From Chryseolinea sp. H1M3-3 (GTDB lineage: Bacteria > Bacteroidota > Bacteroidia > Cytophagales > Cyclobacteriaceae), in NCBI RefSeq assembly GCF_029360725.1, contig NZ_JARKMY010000009.1, positions 62,001 to 126,000 on the forward strand: a stretch of DNA of 64,000 bases. Reading direction: 5' to 3'. The position numbers and the translations under genes are program-made. The notes below the pieces were generated by a model, which worked only from the letters and a program-made list of their open reading frames with translations, did no database searches and was not told where the DNA came from. Shown in pieces: positions 40,774 through 51,031 of the stretch (position 1 is the stretch's first letter; every line of letters begins with the position of its first letter).

Positions 40774-43158
40774 TCACTCATTTCTAAGCGTATCTACAGG
40801 GTTCGCTTTTGCAGCCTTGAAAATCGTGGTACTGGTTGTAAATATTCCTACGCCAAAGATGAAAAGTGTGCAGACTACGACCGAAACAATTCCTACAGGA
40901 ATGTGAAAGGCGTAGATCTCTTTCAGCAGGGCATTGGTTAGATAGTACCCGCCGACTGAACCTGCTAATCCTGCTACAGCCAGAATAATTACAAACTCTT
41001 TGTTCAGTAGTCCCACGACATTTTGTATAGAGGCTCCCAATGCTTTGCGGATTCCAATTTCTTTTGTTCTCTTGGCAATGTTAAGGGAAGCCAGCGCGAA
41101 AATACCGGAGGCAGAAAGAAGACCGCCTAACACAGTTATGAAAAGAAATATCCGTTCAAGATTTGCATTGGTCTCCCTGCTGTTTTTCAGCACCAGATCC
41201 TCCTGGAAGTTACTTTCAAAATATCTTGCAGGGAATAATTCTTTCCAGGTGGCTTCCAGATACTTTTGAACTTCTCCCAGGTTTGCATGTTCTGTTCGTA
41301 CTTGCATCAACACATATTGATTTTTTCCCGCCGGGTAGAAGATAAAAGGCTCGGGGTCTTTTGATCGGTATAAATTATCCACGTGGTTTTCTATGACACC
41401 AAGGATTCTGCGTTTGTTATCATGCAATGTCACAATCTTGTCAAGTGGATCTTTTAAACCTGTTTTTTGAACAAATGCTTTATTGACAATCACACCTTCA
41501 GTTTGGTCAGAGGAGTTATCAAGATTGAATGTACGGCCCTCCGAAATTCGAAGTCCCATCGTCTCAAAATAATTCTTGCCAACACCCATGGCCTGTACGT
41601 TGTATTTGCCTGTGTCGATGGTAACCGGTGTTTCATAATTGTTGCTGCCGACATTTCCATCACTTACACCAACACTTAAAATTTTCGGATTAGTCAGAAT
41701 CGCTTTTTCCATGAGTTCAAAATCGCGTTCACCTTGTAATCCCACAGTAATGACCATATCCTTGTCGTATCCGAATTCTATCGTGTCCTGAAACCGGGTG
41801 TTTTGGATAAATACGACACCACCTATTAACACAATAACAGATAAAGCAAATTGTAAACCTACCAACGTCCTGGTTAACATGTTTGTACCCTTTATCCTTA
41901 CAGATCCTTTCAATAACAGCGTCGGCTTGAATTTACTGCTTAGGAGCGCGGGGTATAAGCCTGCAATTAAGGCAGCGGCAAAAACAAGCACGATTAACGC
42001 CGTAAATAAATTAAGACCGTTCATGTCCTCCAATCCATAAGGGAACTGCCACATATCGGCAAAGGCAGGAACGATTATCTGCGCTAACAGTAAACCGACA
42101 ACGAGTGACAGCGAAATGGTTATTAGTGTCTCAAATAAAAATTGTGAAATAATTTGGCTACGTGCGGCGCCGATTGCCTTTCTAACGCCTACTTCCTTTA
42201 GCCGTTTTGCAGTCATGGCAATGGATGTGTTGGTAAGATTGAAGCAAGCGATCAACAAAATAATTAACGCCATTGATGTAAAAATAACGAGTGGCTCAGG
42301 ACTTATTCTATATGAAACCCAGCTACTTCTAATATCACCTTGGTCGTCGGAAGTCTTAAAGGGTTCAAGAACATACGAATCAACGACCATATCGGTTCGT
42401 TTCTCATTCCGGGTGGGGATATATTTGCTAAACTGGTTACCGATTTGCGCCGCATTTTGAGGAGATGCTAGTTCCATGAATGTACTCGGGTTGCGCCAAT
42501 CGCCCCAGTCGTCTTCTTTCAGTTTGTGTATGTCAATGAATTTTTCAATTCGGACTAATCCTTGAAAATTAAAAGTATTGTTGATGGGAAACTTTTTCAC
42601 AACACCGCCAACCAGCAATTCAATTACAGATTCATTTACAGATGAAAGCACCATTAGCTTTCCAACTGGATCTTCATCTCCGAAATATTTTTTTGCCAAT
42701 TCTTCACTTAGGAAAATGCTATTCTTATCCTTGAAAAATTTATGGCTGCCGGATTTCAACGGGTAATCAAATAAATCAAAAAACGTACTGTCGGCAAAGG
42801 CAAGTCCTTCGTTGAAAATCTTTTCGTCGCCATAACGCAAGGTGCCGCCGCCGTAAAGAAATCGGGTGTAACGTTCTATACCTGCTATCTCACCTGCGGC
42901 GATGGGCGGAAGGACAAGTGGTGCCTGGCAGTCCTTGTTAACCTTTCCGTCTTTATCGCTTGACATGGTTTGTACGCGAAAAATCCGTGCAACTTTCTGA
43001 TCGTCGTGGAAATTATCAAACTCAATGTTATAGGCTAACAACAAGTAAGCTGCCATGCAACATGCGAGCGAGACACCAAGTCCAAGGGCATTAATAACAA
43101 CGAAACTTTTGTTTTTTAGAAAGCTTCTGAATGCGACACGAAGGTAATTTCTAAGCAT
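40774..43158 (-). CDS. MacB/FtsX-family ABC transporter permease
   Basis: This 794-residue permease has two MacB-PCD periplasmic domains and two FtsX-type membrane modules. Each begins with one N-terminal TM helix plus a large periplasmic region, then three TM helices with the L-T-N-T-S-I-A-M-T-A-K-R-L-K-E-V-G-V-R-K-A-I-G-A motif (about residues 310-330), repeated at the C-terminus as L-A-S-L-N-I-A-K-R-T-K-E-I-G-I-R-K-A-L-G-A. Bacteroidota encode many such fused permeases for export or lipoprotein handling. No ATPase gene is adjacent, so its partner is elsewhere. The operator-bearing divergent region lies upstream. Confidence 0.9.
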   Translation of the reverse strand: MLRNYLRVAFRSFLKNKSFVVINALGLGVSLACCMAAYLLLAYNIEFDNFHDDQKVARIFRVQTMSSDKDGKVNKDCQAPLVLPPIAAGEIAGIERYTRFLYGGGTLRYGDEKIFNEGLAFADSTFFDLFDYPLKSGSHKFFKDKNSIFLSEELAKKYFGDEDPVGKLMVLSSVNESVIELLVGGVVKKFPINNTFNFQGLVRIEKFIDIHKLKEDDWGDWRNPSTFMELASPQNAAQIGNQFSKYIPTRNEKRTDMVVDSYVLEPFKTSDDQGDIRSSWVSYRISPEPLVIFTSMALIILLIACFNLTNTSIAMTAKRLKEVGVRKAIGAARSQIISQFLFETLITISLSLVVGLLLAQIIVPAFADMWQFPYGLEDMNGLNLFTALIVLVFAAALIAGLYPALLSSKFKPTLLLKGSVRIKGTNMLTRTLVGLQFALSVIVLIGGVVFIQNTRFQDTIEFGYDKDMVITVGLQGERDFELMEKAILTNPKILSVGVSDGNVGSNNYETPVTIDTGKYNVQAMGVGKNYFETMGLRISEGRTFNLDNSSDQTEGVIVNKAFVQKTGLKDPLDKIVTLHDNKRRILGVIENHVDNLYRSKDPEPFIFYPAGKNQYVLMQVRTEHANLGEVQKYLEATWKELFPARYFESNFQEDLVLKNSRETNANLERIFLFITVLGGLLSASGIFALASLNIAKRTKEIGIRKALGASIQNVVGLLNKEFVIILAVAGLAGSVGGYYLTNALLKEIYAFHIPVGIVSVVVCTLFIFGVGIFTTSTTIFKAAKANPVDTLRNE

Positions 43159-43412
43159 GGATTTGTAGGGGTTGGGGTAAAAAGGAATACTGCTAGCTAA
43201 TCTTTCTCCAAAATATCACATACCTGAAAATCAACACTTTAAAAGACATTCCCAAGCAGACAATGTTCATTATAATAACATCCAGTGAACGGAAATGTAC
43301 AGTGCGCGATGAGGCACATTTATCATTAATGGAATAACCGTTAGATGCGTCGTACCAAAAGGAAGTTGCAGGCAAACCTAAAAATTTTTGGATTTTACAG
43401 TTATTTAACTTT

Positions 43413-43429
43413 ACTTTGAACAACAAAGT
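43413..43429. promoter_or_regulatory. Operator-like palindrome 1 (ACTTTG-N5-CAAAGT)
   Basis: ACTTTG-AACAA-CAAAGT, 8 bp before the start of the first gene of the XrtN locus. With the bases that follow it makes a 26-bp element (43413-43438) that recurs with one mismatch at 44388-44413. It overlaps a TACTTTG promoter-like box. Probable binding site of the winged-helix regulator at 44070. Confidence 0.65.
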
Positions 43430-43437
43430 ACTTTTAG

Positions 43438-44073
43438 ATGAAGCAAGATAAAACATCACCACTTGAGACCCTCACTGAAATTCGCCAGTTAATGGAGCGG
43501 TCTTCCAGATTTATTTCTTTAAGTGGTTTATCCGGGGTATTTGCCGGGCTTTATGCATTGGCAGGCGCTTATGCCGCATATCGGTATCTTGGGTTAGAAG
43601 GATTGGGCTATTACTCTGGACAACGGGTTGTCAGTTCATTTAGGGGCGCAGACACACTAGGGTTTTTAATGGCAGATGCGGCGATTGTTCTTGTCTTAGC
43701 GATCGGCACTGGAATTTTTCTTACAACAAGAAAAGCTAAACAAGATGGAAATTCTATCTTCGACGCGACAGCGAAAAAGTTAATTATCAATCTTGCTATT
43801 CCATTGATTGCCGGGGGAATCTTTTGCATAGCGCTTAATTTTCACGGGGCTTTTATATTTGTTGCTCCGGCAATGTTGATATTTTACGGACTTGCATTGG
43901 TGCACGCCAGTAAGTATACTCGTAACGATATAAGAACACTAGGTTTCGCGGAAGTGTTGTTGGGATTGATTGCATCATTCGTCGTAGGATACGGATTGCT
44001 TTTTTGGGTGCTGGGCTTTGGTGTGCTGCATATTGTTTATGGTACTTACATGTATTTTAAATACGAGAAGTGA
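43438..44073 (+). CDS. Membrane protein of the XrtN locus, function unknown
   Basis: This 211-residue protein has five or six transmembrane segments, beginning after a soluble N-terminal 30 residues (T-S-P-L-E-T-L-T-E-I-R-Q-L-M-E-R-S-S-R-F). It contains G-L-S-G-V-F-A-G-L-Y-A-L-A-G-A-Y, then I-V-L-V-L-A-I-G-T-G-I-F-L and three more helices up to the C-terminus. It overlaps the regulator gene by a GTGA-type 4-bp junction, so the two are translationally coupled. In Bacteroidota a short membrane protein often accompanies a HTH_34 regulator in this order. It starts 8 bp after operator 1. Molecular role unknown. Confidence 0.75.
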   Translation: MKQDKTSPLETLTEIRQLMERSSRFISLSGLSGVFAGLYALAGAYAAYRYLGLEGLGYYSGQRVVSSFRGADTLGFLMADAAIVLVLAIGTGIFLTTRKAKQDGNSIFDATAKKLIINLAIPLIAGGIFCIALNFHGAFIFVAPAMLIFYGLALVHASKYTRNDIRTLGFAEVLLGLIASFVVGYGLLFWVLGFGVLHIVYGTYMYFKYEK

Positions 44074-44372
44074 AGAAAATATTAGTTGATTTTAACAAGG
44101 CATTTGAAAGTAGGGTCCGATTAGGTATCATGTCCATCTTAATGGTAAATGATGAGGCTGACTTTAACACACTTAAAGATTTGCTGAATCTTTCCGATGG
44201 TAATTTGGCGAGCCATATTAAAGCATTAGAAGAATTGAAATACGTCACCGTCAATAAACAGTTCATCGGACGCAAACCCAATACAAATTATAGCGCCTCC
44301 AAAGAAGGGAAGAAGGCATTCAACGCGCATCTTAAATCATTAGAAAATTTAATAAAAAGTCAAACCCATTAA
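44070..44372 (+). CDS. Winged-helix transcriptional regulator (HTH_34/MarR-like)
   Basis: This 100-residue protein begins at GTG 44070 overlapping the TGA of the upstream gene (GTGA). It shows the winged-helix pattern: F-N-K-A-F-E-S-R-V-R-L-G-I-M-S-I-L-M, recognition helix L-S-D-G-N-L-A-S-H-I-K-A-L-E-E-L (residues 42-57), the wing K-P-N-T-N-Y-S-A-S-K-E-G-K-K-A-F, then one C-terminal helix. No ligand domain. This type is normally a dimeric repressor. The two identical palindromes flanking it (43413 and 44388) are the obvious binding sites, suggesting control of itself and of the XrtN genes downstream. 66 bp separate it from the VIT protein start. Confidence 0.85.
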   Translation: MKKILVDFNKAFESRVRLGIMSILMVNDEADFNTLKDLLNLSDGNLASHIKALEELKYVTVNKQFIGRKPNTNYSASKEGKKAFNAHLKSLENLIKSQTH

Positions 44373-44387
44373 AAAATTTGTCGTTCA

Positions 44388-44404
44388 ACTTTGAACTACA
44401 AAGT
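44388..44404. promoter_or_regulatory. Operator-like palindrome 2 (ACTTTG-N5-CAAAGT)
   Basis: ACTTTG-AACTA-CAAAGT, 34 bp before the VIT-protein start. It copies operator 1 with one changed spacer base, and the identity continues through the following TACTTTTAGA (26 bp in total). Confidence 0.65.
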
Positions 44405-44437
44405 ACTTTTAGAATAGAAAACATATTCATCTATACC

Positions 44438-47017
44438 ATGAACACGATCACAGAACCACTTCCTTCGATTAATCCCGGTGTCGCAAATACCGAACATGAA
44501 AGAACAAGCCAAAACATCAGATTGGGCTATGTACTTTTAACCGTTTCTTTTTTTCTTTTTGTTCTATTTGAACATTTGGATTTAAACAGGCGAGATGATT
44601 CGCTCACTGTTTTTGTGCTGCATTATGTTGTCGCTGTAGTGTATGCGATTGTGTTAGCGAGGAATGACGCTTACGGAATCAGAAAAAGTTGGAGAAAGGA
44701 AAACATCAACAGAACAGTAATCTTATTAAGCCTCTTTTTAATAAGCGCATTTGCTTTGAATCGCAGTCTACCGGTGTTTGCAGAATCTACAACCTGGCTG
44801 AGTGCCTATCTCATCATTACAAGTCTATTTCTTTTAAGCTTTCAATATTTTGACAGATTGAACGTATGGATTAACCGACTGCAACTTCTCGTGGCAGGAA
44901 GTGCCGTTGTTCTCCATTTTTACCTGGCCGCATATGTTGCTAACATTTATGGTATCGGGATTATAGGAATACTTTTCTTCGGGATTGGTACACATATTTT
45001 TGTCCCGCTCACCATGGCAGCGGTGTGTGCATTCTTAATTCGTTATGCAACAGATCAGCAGAGAACATCTATTTATTGGGCAAGTGCCGGTGCTATGTTA
45101 ACGCTTGCATTCGTATTGGTATTCATGGGGGAATGGAACAGCCGAATTTCCAAAATTGAAGCCATGAACAATCAATCCGTATTGCGGCAAAACTACGGTT
45201 TGCCTACTTGGGTGGCGGTTACACAGCATTTGGAAAAAGATTGGATTTCTGAAAAAATATTAAAATCGGACCTTGTTTATACAACACACAACAAAGATTT
45301 TCAATGGGACTTTTTTCCTGCCAACAGATTCTGGGGCGAACCGAGGAAACATGATCCGTTGGTATTTATTTCCAGCTTAATATCAAGATGTCCGATATCC
45401 TATGATGATCGGGTAAAGATTCTCCAATCGATTTTTGCCGACAGGCATCAGAGCAATGAGCGCCTTTGGTCTGGCGATAACCTCACCACGTCCTACATCG
45501 TGTCTGATGTCGATATCTATCCAGCCCTGCGGTTGGCTTATGTTGAAAAGTATCTAAGCGTTAGAAATAATATTTCCGATAACAGTTGGAGAGAACAGAC
45601 CCAGGAAGCGATCTACACTTTTCAACTGCCGGAAGGTTCGGTGGTGACCGCGCTTTCTTTGTGGATCAATGGTAAAGAAGAAAAAGGCATACTTACTTCA
45701 AAACAAAAAGCAACAACCGCATACAAAACCATCGTAGGGGTAGAGCAACGAGACCCATCTGTTATCCATTGGCAGGAGGGCAATACCGTAACAGTCCGTG
45801 TCTTCCCATGTACGCCAGAGGAAGAAAGAAAATTTAAAATAGGTATTACGTGTCCCCTGGTTGACGACGGTGACGACATCATCTTTAAGAACATCACCTT
45901 CCGGGGACCATTTGCACATCATGCAAATGAAACGGTTCGCATTCGGTTAATTGGAGAATCTCAAGACGTTGTATTACCTCATTACTTTAAAAAAGATGCT
46001 AAGGGTGATTACATCACTGAGCAGCGTTACAATCCTGATTTCCAGTTTGCCTTCAAAAAGGTGCCTCTGCCTTCCAATCAATTCACTTTCGACGGATACA
46101 CATACGCTTTGCGTCCGCATCGACCATCCCTTCAACCGGCAAACATTAGTCAAATTTTTTTAGACATCAACAATAGTTGGACACGTAAAGAAGTAAAGGC
46201 TGCAGAAAGTCTTCTCGATACCCATAAAATATATGCCACGGTCGATGATGGGTTTGTTCAATTGACAGATGAAAACTGGGACGACTTAACAGGTGTAATG
46301 CGGCAGTATAATTTTTCGATATTCCCTTTTCATCGAATACATAATTTAGAAAATAGTTTAATCGTAACGAAGGGAAAAGGACTATCGCCTCACTTAAGTG
46401 ATTTTAAAGATAGTCAGTTTGCCGAGGACGTTGGACGTTATTTTGAAAGCGGGAAGCAAGTTAAGGTATACAATCTTGAGGGAGGCACATCTACCTATGT
46501 CAGTTCTCTCCGTGAGTTAAGAGGCTTGCAATATGCGCAAGGCAAATTTGATCAGCTCAACGATTGGCTTATTCAAAAGAAATATCCGCGCCCCGAAGAA
46601 TCTGATGGAAACATCATCCTACATGATTCGAAACTTGAAATCACAAAAAACAAAATCAACCGGGAAAGCAAAATAAAGAATAATGCACCTGATCACCTTG
46701 CGAGACTCTTTGCCTACAACAACATCATGCGGAAAGTTGGTGCGCATTATTTCAACGATGATTTCATTTCCCAGGAATTAGTGGATGAAGCTGCTTCCGC
46801 TTATGTGGTTTCGCCCGTGTCAAGCCTCATTGTACTTGAAACGCAAAAAGATTATGATCGATTTGGGATAGAGGAGTCGGTGAACAGTTTGCATAACGCG
46901 ACCAAAGAATCTACAGGAGCCGTACCCGAACCTCATGAATGGGCTCTGATAATTTTATTCCTTGGTTTTATATGCTACCTGAAAGTTCGTCGCTATAAAC
47001 TTTGCACCGCTCTATGA
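44438..47017 (+). CDS. XrtN-system VIT-domain membrane protein with C-terminal sorting signal
   Basis: This 859-residue protein (start ATG 44438, chosen because the upstream frame begins with TTG in the operator region) has seven or eight TM helices in the first 250 residues. A Vault/inter-alpha-trypsin (VIT) domain follows (about 380-480: Y-T-F-Q-L-P-E-G-S-V-V-T-A-L-S-L-W-I-N-G-K...), then a 350-residue soluble region. The C-terminus is a sorting signal: V-P-E-P-H-E-W at residues 829-835, a hydrophobic helix, then K-V-R-R-Y-K. This is the tripartite PEP-CTERM pattern. The next gene, overlapping by 4 bp, is an exosortase, so the protein is its likely dedicated substrate. Function of the mature protein unknown. 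Confidence 0.85.
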   Translation: MNTITEPLPSINPGVANTEHERTSQNIRLGYVLLTVSFFLFVLFEHLDLNRRDDSLTVFVLHYVVAVVYAIVLARNDAYGIRKSWRKENINRTVILLSLFLISAFALNRSLPVFAESTTWLSAYLIITSLFLLSFQYFDRLNVWINRLQLLVAGSAVVLHFYLAAYVANIYGIGIIGILFFGIGTHIFVPLTMAAVCAFLIRYATDQQRTSIYWASAGAMLTLAFVLVFMGEWNSRISKIEAMNNQSVLRQNYGLPTWVAVTQHLEKDWISEKILKSDLVYTTHNKDFQWDFFPANRFWGEPRKHDPLVFISSLISRCPISYDDRVKILQSIFADRHQSNERLWSGDNLTTSYIVSDVDIYPALRLAYVEKYLSVRNNISDNSWREQTQEAIYTFQLPEGSVVTALSLWINGKEEKGILTSKQKATTAYKTIVGVEQRDPSVIHWQEGNTVTVRVFPCTPEEERKFKIGITCPLVDDGDDIIFKNITFRGPFAHHANETVRIRLIGESQDVVLPHYFKKDAKGDYITEQRYNPDFQFAFKKVPLPSNQFTFDGYTYALRPHRPSLQPANISQIFLDINNSWTRKEVKAAESLLDTHKIYATVDDGFVQLTDENWDDLTGVMRQYNFSIFPFHRIHNLENSLIVTKGKGLSPHLSDFKDSQFAEDVGRYFESGKQVKVYNLEGGTSTYVSSLRELRGLQYAQGKFDQLNDWLIQKKYPRPEESDGNIILHDSKLEITKNKINRESKIKNNAPDHLARLFAYNNIMRKVGAHYFNDDFISQELVDEAASAYVVSPVSSLIVLETQKDYDRFGIEESVNSLHNATKESTGAVPEPHEWALIILFLGFICYLKVRRYKLCTAL

Positions 47018-48390
47018 ATCCACTTTTGAAATTTGGCATGCAGCAACTGATAGCAAAGGGTTATTTACTTTTGATTGTATTGTTGATAATCGTAGCCGTC
47101 GGCGGTGCGTTTGCATTCACCGGTACATTCCTCACTGGCACCAATGTCCTGTTAGGATTTTGCCTGCTTCCTTTCACGATATTTTTCCAGGAGAAGCAGC
47201 GCATCAACTATACCTACATGGGACTGATGATTTTGTTTGCCATACTCGCTTTTGTGTACAGCGTTCGTATGTTTTACTTCTTCATGTTAGCGTTTTATTT
47301 GTTGCTTTTACTGGAAAGGTTTGTTGGGAAAGTGAATCCACTCATCTTATTTCTGCTCGCTTTCATGTCTCCGTTTTTCCACCAGGTGTCCGTCATTTTG
47401 GGTTTCCCCATACGATTACAACTCAGTCAGTGGGCGGGAAGTATGCTCGCCATTGCAGGGTGTAATGTTCAGGTTGAAGGAAACACCATGTTGATGAATG
47501 GAAGTGTTTTTGAAGTGGATGAAGCTTGCATGGGTTTAAGTATGCTTGCCACTTCATTATTGATGGGCGTCGCAGCGATAGCGCATCAGTATCGTATATC
47601 GGGACTGCGATTGAATTTAATTCATCTCATTTCGTTCTTCAGTTTCGTAGCTATACTGAATGTGATTTCAAATATATTTAGAATTATGTTGCTCGTGATA
47701 TTTCGCGTTCCTCCAGAAGACCCGATGCACGAACTTGTAGGAATCGCATGCTTACTGCTTTATGTAATGGTACCCATTTATTTTATCAGCGTCTGGGTGA
47801 TTACAAAGTTTGGAAAATCATTTCAGGCACTAGAGCAAAGAAGGCCAGTTGCTAAATTCGCAAAAGCACTTTGGACAACAACCGCTATTATCGTTATGAT
47901 GATTGGCATCCGCCTCGATCTTCAAAGAAAATTACCACCGACAATTTCTCATGCCTCAGTAAAACTTCCGGGTGCTCAAGTTGTAAAGATGGATGCCGGA
48001 ATAACCAAATTGTCCAACCAGAAAATTTTAGTATATGTAAAACCCATACCAGAGTTTTTTACCAGTGAGCACACGCCTTTGTTATGCTGGCAAGGGAGTG
48101 GATATAAATTTCAACGTGTTACTAAAACCAAGGTCGCCGGGAATGAAATTTATACCGGACAACTCGTGAAAGACCAGGATAAATTGTTTACCGCATGGTG
48201 GTATTCAAACGGGAAGATCGTAACAATTGATCAGTGGAATTGGAGACTCAGGATGTTCAAAGGCGAAGAAAAATTCTCCGTTATTAATGTAACGGCCAAA
48301 GACCCACGGACACTTATGACTAACATAGAAATGATTTTTGAAAAGCACTGGTTAATGAAAAAAAATGCGGATAGCGATGTTGCACTATAG
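47014..48390 (+). CDS. xrtN: XrtN-type exosortase
   Basis: This 458-residue membrane protease/transpeptidase has about ten TM helices (residues 1-270) and a C-terminal domain of about 190 residues on the outer side. The exosortase triad is clear: Cys172 in E-A-C-M-G-L, Arg223 in S-N-I-F-R-I, and His239 in P-M-H-E-L-V-G. I chose the ATG at 47014, which overlaps the TGA of the substrate gene (ATGA); 47002 is a TTG. Exosortases cut PEP-CTERM-like signals from proteins crossing the inner membrane. The neighbouring VIT protein carries the signal, supporting the XrtN subtype call. Confidence 0.88.
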   Translation: MNPLLKFGMQQLIAKGYLLLIVLLIIVAVGGAFAFTGTFLTGTNVLLGFCLLPFTIFFQEKQRINYTYMGLMILFAILAFVYSVRMFYFFMLAFYLLLLLERFVGKVNPLILFLLAFMSPFFHQVSVILGFPIRLQLSQWAGSMLAIAGCNVQVEGNTMLMNGSVFEVDEACMGLSMLATSLLMGVAAIAHQYRISGLRLNLIHLISFFSFVAILNVISNIFRIMLLVIFRVPPEDPMHELVGIACLLLYVMVPIYFISVWVITKFGKSFQALEQRRPVAKFAKALWTTTAIIVMMIGIRLDLQRKLPPTISHASVKLPGAQVVKMDAGITKLSNQKILVYVKPIPEFFTSEHTPLLCWQGSGYKFQRVTKTKVAGNEIYTGQLVKDQDKLFTAWWYSNGKIVTIDQWNWRLRMFKGEEKFSVINVTAKDPRTLMTNIEMIFEKHWLMKKNADSDVAL

Positions 48391-48883
48391 AGACACTCGT
48401 GAATTGCAAAATCAAATTAGTAACAGGATTGTTCTTTTTATTGCGGGGCTGGTCTTTAGCGGGGTAACAGCTTTTCCAATTGAAGGGGAGCTACGCATTG
48501 CGCATCAATGGATCACTCGTAATGAATGGGATAATGTGTTTACTAAATGGATCGCTTGTGTTTATCAGGGCGTACATGAGACTAATAGCGCATACCCATT
48601 TATCTCTTATGGGAGTGATTGGTTAGGATTTGCCCACATTATAATCGCCATAGCATTTCTGGGTCCGTTAAAAGATCCGGTTAAAAACCGATGGATAATA
48701 GAATTCGGATTAATTGCTTGCCTTGCAATTTTTCCATTTGCTTTGATTGCAGGTGCAGTTCGGGGAATTCCGATCTTTTGGCGCTTTATCGATTGCATGT
48801 TCGGCATTGTTGGAGGTTGGATTCTTTGGAGTTGTTACATAAGGATAAAGCTATTAGAAAGTATAAAATCATTAAATGCATGA
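48365..48883 (+). CDS. Membrane protein of the XrtN locus, function unknown
   Basis: This 172-residue protein has four predicted TM helices (F-I-A-G-L-V-F-S-G-V-T-A near residue 25; D-W-L-G-F-A-H-I-I-I-A-I-A-F-L near 85; L-I-A-C-L-A-I-F-P-F-A-L-I-A-G near 115; C-M-F-G-I-V-G-G-W-I-L-W near 145). A conserved-looking A-I-A-F-L-G-P-L-K-D-P-V-K and R-G-I-P-I-F-W-R lie between them. The pattern R-G-I-P...D-C-M-F-G recalls lipid-phosphatase-like (PAP2) folds only weakly, and no family is certain. It overlaps xrtN by 26 bp and the following gene by 4 bp, so it belongs to the operon. Confidence 0.6.
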   Translation: MRIAMLHYRDTRELQNQISNRIVLFIAGLVFSGVTAFPIEGELRIAHQWITRNEWDNVFTKWIACVYQGVHETNSAYPFISYGSDWLGFAHIIIAIAFLGPLKDPVKNRWIIEFGLIACLAIFPFALIAGAVRGIPIFWRFIDCMFGIVGGWILWSCYIRIKLLESIKSLNA

Positions 48884-49608
48884 AGCCAATATTGAGAACC
48901 GTAGTTGCCGTCAGTGTTTTCAGCATCGCCATGGCGGCTTTGGAAAGTGCTGTTGTCGTATACTTGAGAGCACTTTATTATCCGGAAGAATTCACTGTAC
49001 AGTTTAAAATTATTGATCAGCATATTCTCCTGATTGAGATCGTTCGGGAAATTGCAACACTGGCGATGCTGGCCTCAATCGGTTTTATAGCTGGTAATAA
49101 CTTTAGAGAACGTATGGCGTATTTTCTAATAAGTTTTGCCGTGTGGGATGTCTTCTACTATGGATGGCTAAAAGTTTTTATCGATTGGCCTGCTTCATTT
49201 TTGGATTGGGATATTTTATTTTTGATTCCGATAACCTGGATTGGTCCCGTTGCTGCGCCGATTATATGTTCACTGACGATGATCGTGCTAGCGGTGTTTC
49301 TTCTTCTTTACAAGTCAGTTATGACAAGAGCTACTTGGACGTGCTTGGTCTTAGGTACGTTGCTGATTCTGTTTACATTTACAAGGGATTATGCCCAATT
49401 GATCGCCTTAAATGATTTTGTAAAAGATTATCCTAACCTGATGCAAAATCCGGACTTCGTTGCTAAAGCGGCGATGTTAACACCAAAACCTTATGCATGG
49501 AATATCTTTTGGGCCGGTGAATTCATGTTTTTGTTGGCAATCATAAACGTCAAATTGAATAAATACCACGGTATGATTACACGCGAGATGATTTCCACAT
49601 CACAATAA
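48880..49608 (+). CDS. Membrane protein of the XrtN locus, function unknown (terminal gene)
   Basis: This 242-residue protein (ATG 48880 overlapping the TGA of the previous gene) has six TM helices: L-R-T-V-V-A-V-S-V-F-S-I-A-M-A, E-I-A-T-L-A-M-L-A-S-I-G-F-I-A-G, Y-F-L-I-S-F-A-V-W-D-V-F-Y-Y-G-W, a W-D-I-L-F-L-I-P-I-T-W-I-G-P-V-A-A-P-I segment, then two more. The conserved F-Y-Y-G-W and I-P-I-T-W-I-G-P-V-A-A-P-I motifs suggest a real family, but I do not recognise it. Its 3' end overlaps the convergent GntP gene by 32 bp. The operon position argues for a role with the exosortase or its substrate. Confidence 0.6.
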   Translation: MKPILRTVVAVSVFSIAMAALESAVVVYLRALYYPEEFTVQFKIIDQHILLIEIVREIATLAMLASIGFIAGNNFRERMAYFLISFAVWDVFYYGWLKVFIDWPASFLDWDILFLIPITWIGPVAAPIICSLTMIVLAVFLLLYKSVMTRATWTCLVLGTLLILFTFTRDYAQLIALNDFVKDYPNLMQNPDFVAKAAMLTPKPYAWNIFWAGEFMFLLAIINVKLNKYHGMITREMISTSQ

Positions 49609-51031
49609 AGACAACAATGAGTATACCTAGTGGAAGCAACGGGTCCAAAATAGTGCCGTGCGCACCCCAAAATAAATTTAACAATGCAATGCTAGTTCCA
49701 CCTATTGCCCAGGCTATAGTTGTGGACACCGACCACACCGCCATTTGTTGTTTTACATCTATGATTCCCATCATTCGGTTGACTACCCAAAAAAGACTGT
49801 CATTAAAATAACTAAAGAAAAAGGCACCCGTTACGGTGGCTTGGGCCGCGAACAACATGTTTACATCAGGTATTTGAGAAAGAATTGGCGCACAGATAGA
49901 AGCGGTGGTCACACACGCGACGGTTCCAGATCCTTGAATTAGCCTGATTAGCGTTGCAACGACAAAAGGGATCATAATGGGTGACAGCGGCAAACTTGTA
50001 ACGCGCTCGGCTAACGCTGCACCAGCCGTACTATCGCGTACTACTGCACCCAAAGCTCCGCCAGCTCCTGTCACCATTAAAATAATTCCGGCAGATTGAA
50101 GACCTTCTTCAAGCCGTGCGGAAGTTGACTGACGATCCATGTAGGGAATAAGCAAGTACACCGCCAGCAACGTGCTAATCGAAAGCGCAATGATGGGTGT
50201 TCCAATAAAATTGAAAGATGAGGTAATGAACGAATCTCCGCCGCTGTTCGGGAAGATTCCAATAATCGCCTTAATGAAAATGAGAGCAATCGGAACAACA
50301 ATAGGGAGAAGGGACAACGTAAGATTCGGAAGTGGGCGATCTGCCTTCGCAGTTAGATAAGTATCATGCATTACCTGAAGCGCTTTGTCGGATACATCAT
50401 GCGCTGTAACAATGGGATATCTTTTTTCAAGCCATTGCGCATAAAGCACAATACCGATCACACACGGAATGGCAAGCGCCATTCCCAAAAGCATCATCGC
50501 ACCAATGTCAACACCAAAAATTCCCGCTGCACCGAGGGGACCCGGTGTAGGCGGTACCATGGTGTGTGTAACGACCAGGCCACCCGCCAACGCTACACCC
50601 AGAGCGATCACGGATCGATTCCCTTTTTTTGCTAACGCCTTTGTTACAGGATAAAGGATGACAAATGCCGAATCAACAAAAATGGAAATACTAACAATAT
50701 AGCCTGTTAAAGCAAGCGCCCATTCTTCCCGTCGTTTCCCCAGCCATTTGATAAAAGAAAAAGCGATTTGTTCAGCCGCGCCCGAGACCTCCAGAATGCG
50801 GCCCATCATAACACCCAGTCCAATGACTATTCCTATACTTCCTAATGTAGAACCGAACCCCTTTATAATTACATCAATTGTTTTTTCAGAAGACATTCCT
50901 CCGCTCATACTCGCTATGCAAGCCGCGAGTATCATTGCGATCAGCGGAGGGACTTTGGTTCGAAGGACAAGGAGAATAAGTACTGCGACCGCGACCACCA
51001 GGCCAATGATTGGCAGAAACATGGGGCTCAC
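49577..51031 (-). CDS. GntP-family proton symporter for acid sugars
   Basis: This 484-residue permease has about 12-14 TM helices and the GntP signature: early P-L-I-A-M-I-L-A-A-C-I-A-S-M, S-I-F-V-D-S-A-F-V-I-L-Y-P-V-T-K-A-L-A, H-T-M-V-P-P-T-P-G-P-L-G-A-A and I-Q-G-S-G-T-V-A-C-V-T-T-A. Relatives import gluconate or four-carbon acid sugars (YgbN). It overlaps the DenD-like gene by 4 bp (ATGA), and together with the divergent DUF1537 kinase it forms a threonate/erythronate-type catabolic unit. Its 3' end overlaps the last XrtN-locus gene tail-to-tail. Confidence 0.9.
   Translation of the reverse strand: MSPMFLPIIGLVVAVAVLILLVLRTKVPPLIAMILAACIASMSGGMSSEKTIDVIIKGFGSTLGSIGIVIGLGVMMGRILEVSGAAEQIAFSFIKWLGKRREEWALALTGYIVSISIFVDSAFVILYPVTKALAKKGNRSVIALGVALAGGLVVTHTMVPPTPGPLGAAGIFGVDIGAMMLLGMALAIPCVIGIVLYAQWLEKRYPIVTAHDVSDKALQVMHDTYLTAKADRPLPNLTLSLLPIVVPIALIFIKAIIGIFPNSGGDSFITSSFNFIGTPIIALSISTLLAVYLLIPYMDRQSTSARLEEGLQSAGIILMVTGAGGALGAVVRDSTAGAALAERVTSLPLSPIMIPFVVATLIRLIQGSGTVACVTTASICAPILSQIPDVNMLFAAQATVTGAFFFSYFNDSLFWVVNRMMGIIDVKQQMAVWSVSTTIAWAIGGTSIALLNLFWGAHGTILDPLLPLGILIVVFIVMWKSSRV

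Follow-up and report, generated by a model that had tools for sequence, protein, structure and literature searches.

An exosortase N cluster with a single VIT-domain substrate and a putative HTH_34 operator, and its likely place in a wider envelope regulon

Gene cluster and the XrtN-VIT pair

The window analyzed here is a 64,000-nucleotide stretch of the genome of Chryseolinea sp. H1M3-3 (contig NZ_JARKMY010000009.1, positions 62,001 to 126,000), and the subject is a cluster of six plus-strand genes within it, g1 to g6 (43438-49608), which encodes an exosortase of the XrtN type, its VIT-domain substrate and a winged-helix regulator. The genes were found to be as tightly packed on one strand as a sequence-only reading had described: the g1/g2 junction is a GTGA overlap at 44070, ATGA overlaps were found at the g3/g4 junction (47014) and the g5/g6 junction (48880), and g5 starts inside g4. 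A gap of 65 bp separates g2 from g3, so the cluster probably comprises two transcription units. The genes and the sorting signal are as follows.

43438-44073, plus strand: g1, 211-aa multi-pass membrane protein, partner of g2
44070-44372, plus strand: g2, 100-aa winged-helix regulator (HTH_34), whose GTG start overlaps the g1 stop
44438-47017, plus strand: g3, 859-aa XrtN substrate with seven transmembrane helices, VIT domain, vWA-like domain, GAVPEPHEW tail, transmembrane helix and basic end
46916-47014, plus strand: tripartite sorting tail of g3 (G-A-V-P-E-P-H-E-W, helix, KVRRYK)
47014-48390, plus strand: g4, exosortase XrtN, with an ATG overlapping the g3 stop and an extra C-terminal domain
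48365-48883, plus strand: g5, 172-aa membrane protein of uncertain start codon, an occasional neighbor of XrtN
48880-49608, plus strand: g6, 242-aa membrane protein, a rare neighbor of XrtN

XrtN with a VIT partner is an already known kind of pair, and g4 and g3 are members of it by curated hidden Markov model tests: g4 scored 346.5 bits against TIGR04476 (exosortase N; curated cut-off 200) and also matched PF09721, and g3 scored 902.6 bits against TIGR04477 (cut-off 250) over model positions 2-820 of 822. The subtype and partner proposed from the letters alone were thereby borne out, and the Cys/Arg/His signature of the exosortase held as well, the catalytic Cys171, Arg222 and His238 (numbered on the 457-residue translation starting at 47017) being unchanged across 10 homologues. 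No match of XrtN was obtained in the PDB. The likeness of its C-terminal domain to EpsI was weak (EpsI_type_B, E 0.23) and is suggestive only; DUF3485 appeared in one homologue (L011) at E 0.0055 and 16.8 bits, below the cut-off of 26.1, no DUF3485 or EpsI model was matched above cut-off, and XrtN of the window gave no DUF3485 hit.

The VIT domain of g3 was recovered with PF08487 (E 7.5e-13), and the predicted tail was present. Topology and fold were modelled with AlphaFold2 (predicted local distance difference test score, pLDDT, 86.7); the model has seven helices at its N-terminus, followed by the VIT domain, then a vWA-like alpha/beta domain that contains a D-x-N-x-S motif, and finally the tail helix. 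Its top fold match in the PDB was inter-alpha-inhibitor heavy chain 1 (E 1.7e-14). The seven helices were also predicted by hydropathy, in agreement with the earlier description of a multi-membrane substrate.

The tail residues G, PEP and EW were invariant in 36 homologues of g3, and the family consensus G-[AS]-V-P-E-P-x-E-W is nearly unchanged; a back-translated PEPxxEW-type pattern occurred once in the window against 0 expected. When a profile built from 24 homologous tails was run over all six frames of the 6.88-Mb genome, g3 was recovered at E 6.9e-21 and the next best match had an E of 1.87. No second XrtN-type tail was thus found in the genome, and the claim of one dedicated substrate stands for tails of this type; several proteins with the same tail, as in multi-cargo PEP-CTERM/EpsH systems, were not found in this six-frame search, which returned a single match. 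The VIT stretch of g3 reached 63.5 bits against TIGR04286 (MSEP-CTERM), below its cut-off of 150, and g3 falls outside that family. In a limited literature search we found no paper naming XrtN or MSEP-CTERM, and as far as we found, no role has been established for XrtN or its VIT partner, both of which are named families.

This genome encodes a further exosortase-family member besides XrtN: the gene for XrtF (132 bits) was observed on another contig (G000 contig C6:198515-198892; L171:1459-2004; minus strand) together with an XrtF-associated membrane protein. It is situated among DegT aminotransferase and acyltransferase genes, in an apparent polysaccharide gene cluster.

XrtN was above cut-off in only four genomes of a phylum-wide sample of 296, too few for co-occurrence, and XrtN-positive genomes were therefore collected through their loci. 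This gave 80 loci from Bacteroidota genomes, in 79 of which XrtN is directly preceded by the VIT gene, and the pairing claimed for the phylum is thereby upheld; in the exceptional locus (L053) the contig holds just 176 bases ahead of XrtN. The VIT gene is split by extra open frames in one locus (L095:4707-8836), and in another two frames are inserted between it and XrtN (L044:4691-10212).

One XrtN-positive genome, G075, carries a different cargo. Its nearest tailed protein (653 aa), encoded two genes upstream of XrtN (L166:965-2923), has a signal-peptide-like start in place of the seven helices, followed by VIT and vWA domains and a TPEPHEW tail; the XrtN substrate model matches it at the tail only, and it scored 427 bits against TIGR03788, below the cut-off of 551.65. 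This protein is likely the XrtN partner, which makes G075 a natural swap separating the recognition signal from the cargo. A search of viral contigs for the protein gave no match. Sortase-target-like VIT-vWA proteins numbered 19 in 390 genomes of the order; in the loci read, two of the 19 had a PEP-type tail and the others ended differently. The second PEP-tailed case, a VPEPEEW-tailed VIT-vWA protein of genome G461 (L190:1402-3501 / L191:7091-9190), had no exosortase near its gene in the two loci read.

A repeated palindrome and its linkage to the regulator

The regulator g2 matched PF13601 (HTH_34) at E 2.8e-30 and 104.7 bits (gathering cut-off 27), as its description as a winged-helix protein had led us to expect; it is the only full-length HTH_34 protein of this genome, and its closest solved structure is 1ub9 (PH1061). 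The model of g1 (pLDDT 85) is helical throughout and found no match in a PDB fold search, and no Pfam or NCBIfam family above cut-off was obtained for g1, g5 or g6. Both upstream regions, that of g1 and that of g3, carry a 26-bp operator-like palindrome, ACTTTG-N5-CAAAGTACTTTT, in the shared layout ACTTTG-N5-CAAAGT followed by ACTTTT.

43413-43438, plus strand: operator copy 1, consisting of the palindrome ACTTTG-AACAA-CAAAGT and ACTTTTAGA and reaching to the g1 ATG
44388-44413, plus strand: operator copy 2, before the VIT substrate gene g3
43387-43418, plus strand: candidate Bacteroidota promoter of g1-g2, TTTG (43387-43390), 20 bp, TTACTTTG (43411-43418)

The two copies are identical at 25 of 26 bases. 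The sequence-only reading had overlooked the element, even though its segment began at 43413, the first base of copy 1. An alignment of 18 g1 sites showed conservation of TTG at -25 to -23 and, over the operator, of T[T/A]ACTTTG. A T[TA]ACTTTG box that follows TTG at 20 bp matches the layout of Bacteroidota promoters; the -7-like box of the candidate g1-g2 promoter, which was assigned from this layout, overlaps the operator's left half. When the operon was scanned with generic promoter and terminator patterns, the counts were at chance level, and they were discarded.

The exact 23-mer pattern occurred five times in the 6.88-Mb genome, and its reversed control did not occur. There were 62 exact copies in 48 XrtN-positive genomes and 68 in 98 relatives, again with none of the reversed pattern. 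Under a strict rule (at most one mismatch, at most 400 bp from g1 or g3), 63 of the 80 XrtN loci carried the operator, 57 of them exactly. Row-by-row inspection of the remaining loci revealed exact copies in seven, either within the same gene string or at its head; in five, the relevant upstream DNA was missing.

The element accompanies the regulator away from XrtN as well. The g1 and g2 genes were kept together in all 40 cassettes examined, and each of 20 cassettes unlinked to XrtN had an operator copy with at most one mismatch, upstream of g1 in 18; in cassettes L160 and L161 it lies at DUF1361 and diacylglycerol kinase (DAGK) genes leading the same string. Of the 68 copies in relatives, 35 were near g2, and most of these fell into one of two distance classes: about 640 bp ahead of the g2 start, a position preceding g1, or 300-350 bp past that start, just beyond the g2 end. 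A strong g2 ortholog was present in 36 of 38 operator-positive relatives compared with 23 of 60 operator-negative ones (Fisher p 9e-9, a value that is optimistic because the genomes compared are related). All 48 XrtN-positive genomes tested had a g2 ortholog, as did many XrtN-less genomes. G075 is XrtN-positive and has neither a regulator ortholog nor an exact operator.

Other genes share the element. Upstream of the single creD of this genome lie two operators, one exact and the other with one mismatch, and the exact copies at G000 C2:803793 (L106) and C10:33159 (L107) precede a DoxX-like gene and a gene for a 95-aa membrane protein. A small protein resembling the latter was also seen to follow an operator in L127. 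In other genomes exact operators precede DUF4153, DUF1361 and small membrane-protein genes, and some precede genes without evident kinship. Recurrent members of the gene strings around XrtN are CreD, DUF4153, DUF1361 and a diacylglycerol-kinase-like gene. In genomes of the same genus g1-g2 lies near creD and apart from XrtN, and g5 adjoins an operator-linked DUF1361 gene in another genome (L122). The flanks of the cluster, both on the minus strand, are a MacB/FtsX-type ABC permease gene upstream (40774-43158) and a GntP-type permease gene downstream (49577-51031) that overlaps the g6 end; neither has apparent kinship to the system.

Proposed regulation and alternative explanations

The sequence itself shows the pair, the uniqueness of the tail, the repetition of the palindrome and the linkage of the palindrome to g2, and from co-occurrence and position we infer that g2 binds the putative operator. 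The reading that we consider reasonably probable is a one-substrate exosortase N system under an HTH_34 regulator that governs a wider inner-membrane and envelope regulon. The operator stands at XrtN operons, at unlinked cassettes and at creD, DUF4153 and DUF1361 genes, and its presence tracks that of the regulator; a wider regulon, of which XrtN-VIT looks like one target, is therefore suggested.

Most likely g2 would bind ACTTTG-N5-CAAAGTACTTTT as a repressor, at a site overlapping the -7 region and the transcription start, since a protein at the operator would cover the start. Its targets would be g1-g2 (autoregulation), g3-g4-g5-g6, the only creD and the two small membrane-protein genes. 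The g1 protein, which is translationally overlapped and conserved with g2, is a natural candidate for signal input and would probably act as a sensor that relays the signal to g2. On relief of repression, g3 would be made, with seven helices in the inner membrane and the VIT-vWA body in the periplasm; cleavage by XrtN at the PEP motif would then separate the body from the last helix, and the new C-terminus might be passed to a putative envelope acceptor. According to the model, the cut product would still be held in the membrane by its seven helices.

Several observations weigh against this proposal. Activation instead of repression is possible, and no clear promoter element was seen upstream of operator copy 2. 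Across this genome as a whole, 1-mismatch operators were at background (22 compared with 30 in the control), so that only exact copies count on their own, and 1-mismatch matches were discarded as evidence except at regulon genes. The 23 operator-negative relatives that also carry the regulator imply that the exact pattern misses sites or that sites vary. Furthermore, in an unrooted g1+g2 tree the same-genus cassettes joined Pedobacter-type cassettes (split support 100%), and the cassette of the window stood apart on a long branch. It is a fair inference that the window cassette was acquired or replaced; as an acquired replacement, it may have different targets.

The alternative that survives best, though we hold it somewhat less probable than its opposite, departs from the proposal in the final step only: XrtN would be a maturation protease that clips the last helix of an inner-membrane VIT-vWA protein and so activates it, with neither transfer nor export. 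The predicted helices, which would retain the cut protein in the inner membrane, and the occurrence of only one such tail in the genome are in its favor. However, the G075 partner bears the same tail behind a signal-peptide-like start, and release or transfer fits that protein better.

The cluster had also been taken for a self-contained operon with a built-in regulator, and neither term was supported by the comparison of loci. With g2 local to the operon, the operators at creD and elsewhere would be coincidental or bound by another protein. The contiguity of g1-g2 and g3-g6 here, with an operator at both units, and the 20 of 80 loci in which g1-g2 adjoins XrtN are what such a module would predict; g5, however, is near XrtN in 12 loci and g6 in two, the other 60 loci are without an adjacent g1-g2 and most retain the operator, unlinked cassettes share it beside CreD, DAGK or DUF1361, XrtN-less genomes have both g2 and the operator, and XrtF is a further exosortase in this genome. 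We thus regard a self-contained module as improbable. Still more doubtful is that the element is a promoter or sigma-factor site and not a g2 operator, for although it overlaps the -7-like box, it is palindromic and rare (the five exact copies), and its occurrence tracks the g2 ortholog.

To our knowledge, neither an XrtN operator nor its regulatory setting has been described, and a limited literature search found no paper on that setting. The regulatory setting across many Bacteroidota is the new part, the pair itself being known. If the pair indeed shares a conserved operator with CreD, DUF4153 and DUF1361 genes, it would belong to an envelope regulon, and such a placement makes the role of XrtN-VIT testable.

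Comparison with known systems

XrtK (TIGR04287) pairs with the MSEP-CTERM VIT protein (TIGR04286) and is thus, like XrtN, an exosortase with a VIT-domain target; it differs in its tail, in its exosortase subtype and in a curated cut-off that g3 does not reach. The marine proteobacterial sortase target (TIGR03788) resembles the XrtN substrate in being a VIT-vWA target of a dedicated C-terminal enzyme, whereas the G075 partner lies below the cut-off of that model and has an XrtN-type PEPHEW tail. The inter-alpha-inhibitor heavy chains (ITIH) have a VIT/vWA-type fold in common with g3, and their C-terminal peptides attach them covalently to polysaccharide (PMC7170535). However, they are secreted animal proteins that have no exosortase, and the resemblance in processing is an analogy only.

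By that analogy, VIT-vWA might be a recurring chassis on which XrtN, XrtK and sortase tails are swapped and whose new C-terminus becomes covalently attached to a glycan of the envelope, as in the heavy chains, with HTH_34-controlled induction alongside CreD in Bacteroidota serving as an envelope-integrity response; we consider this extension unlikely.

Within Bacteroidota, XrtF and its associated protein in Flavobacterium johnsoniae, whose genes came out of a surface-colonization screen (PMC10936215), are likewise an exosortase pair, to which the XrtF pair on another contig of this genome is homologous; this kind of pair differs in subtype and is without a VIT protein. In the TIGR04476-TIGR04477 systems, both models of which are matched here, the exosortase gene is likewise immediately preceded by that of one VIT substrate. 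Unlike the plain XrtN pair, the pair described here is joined to a g1-g2 regulatory cassette.

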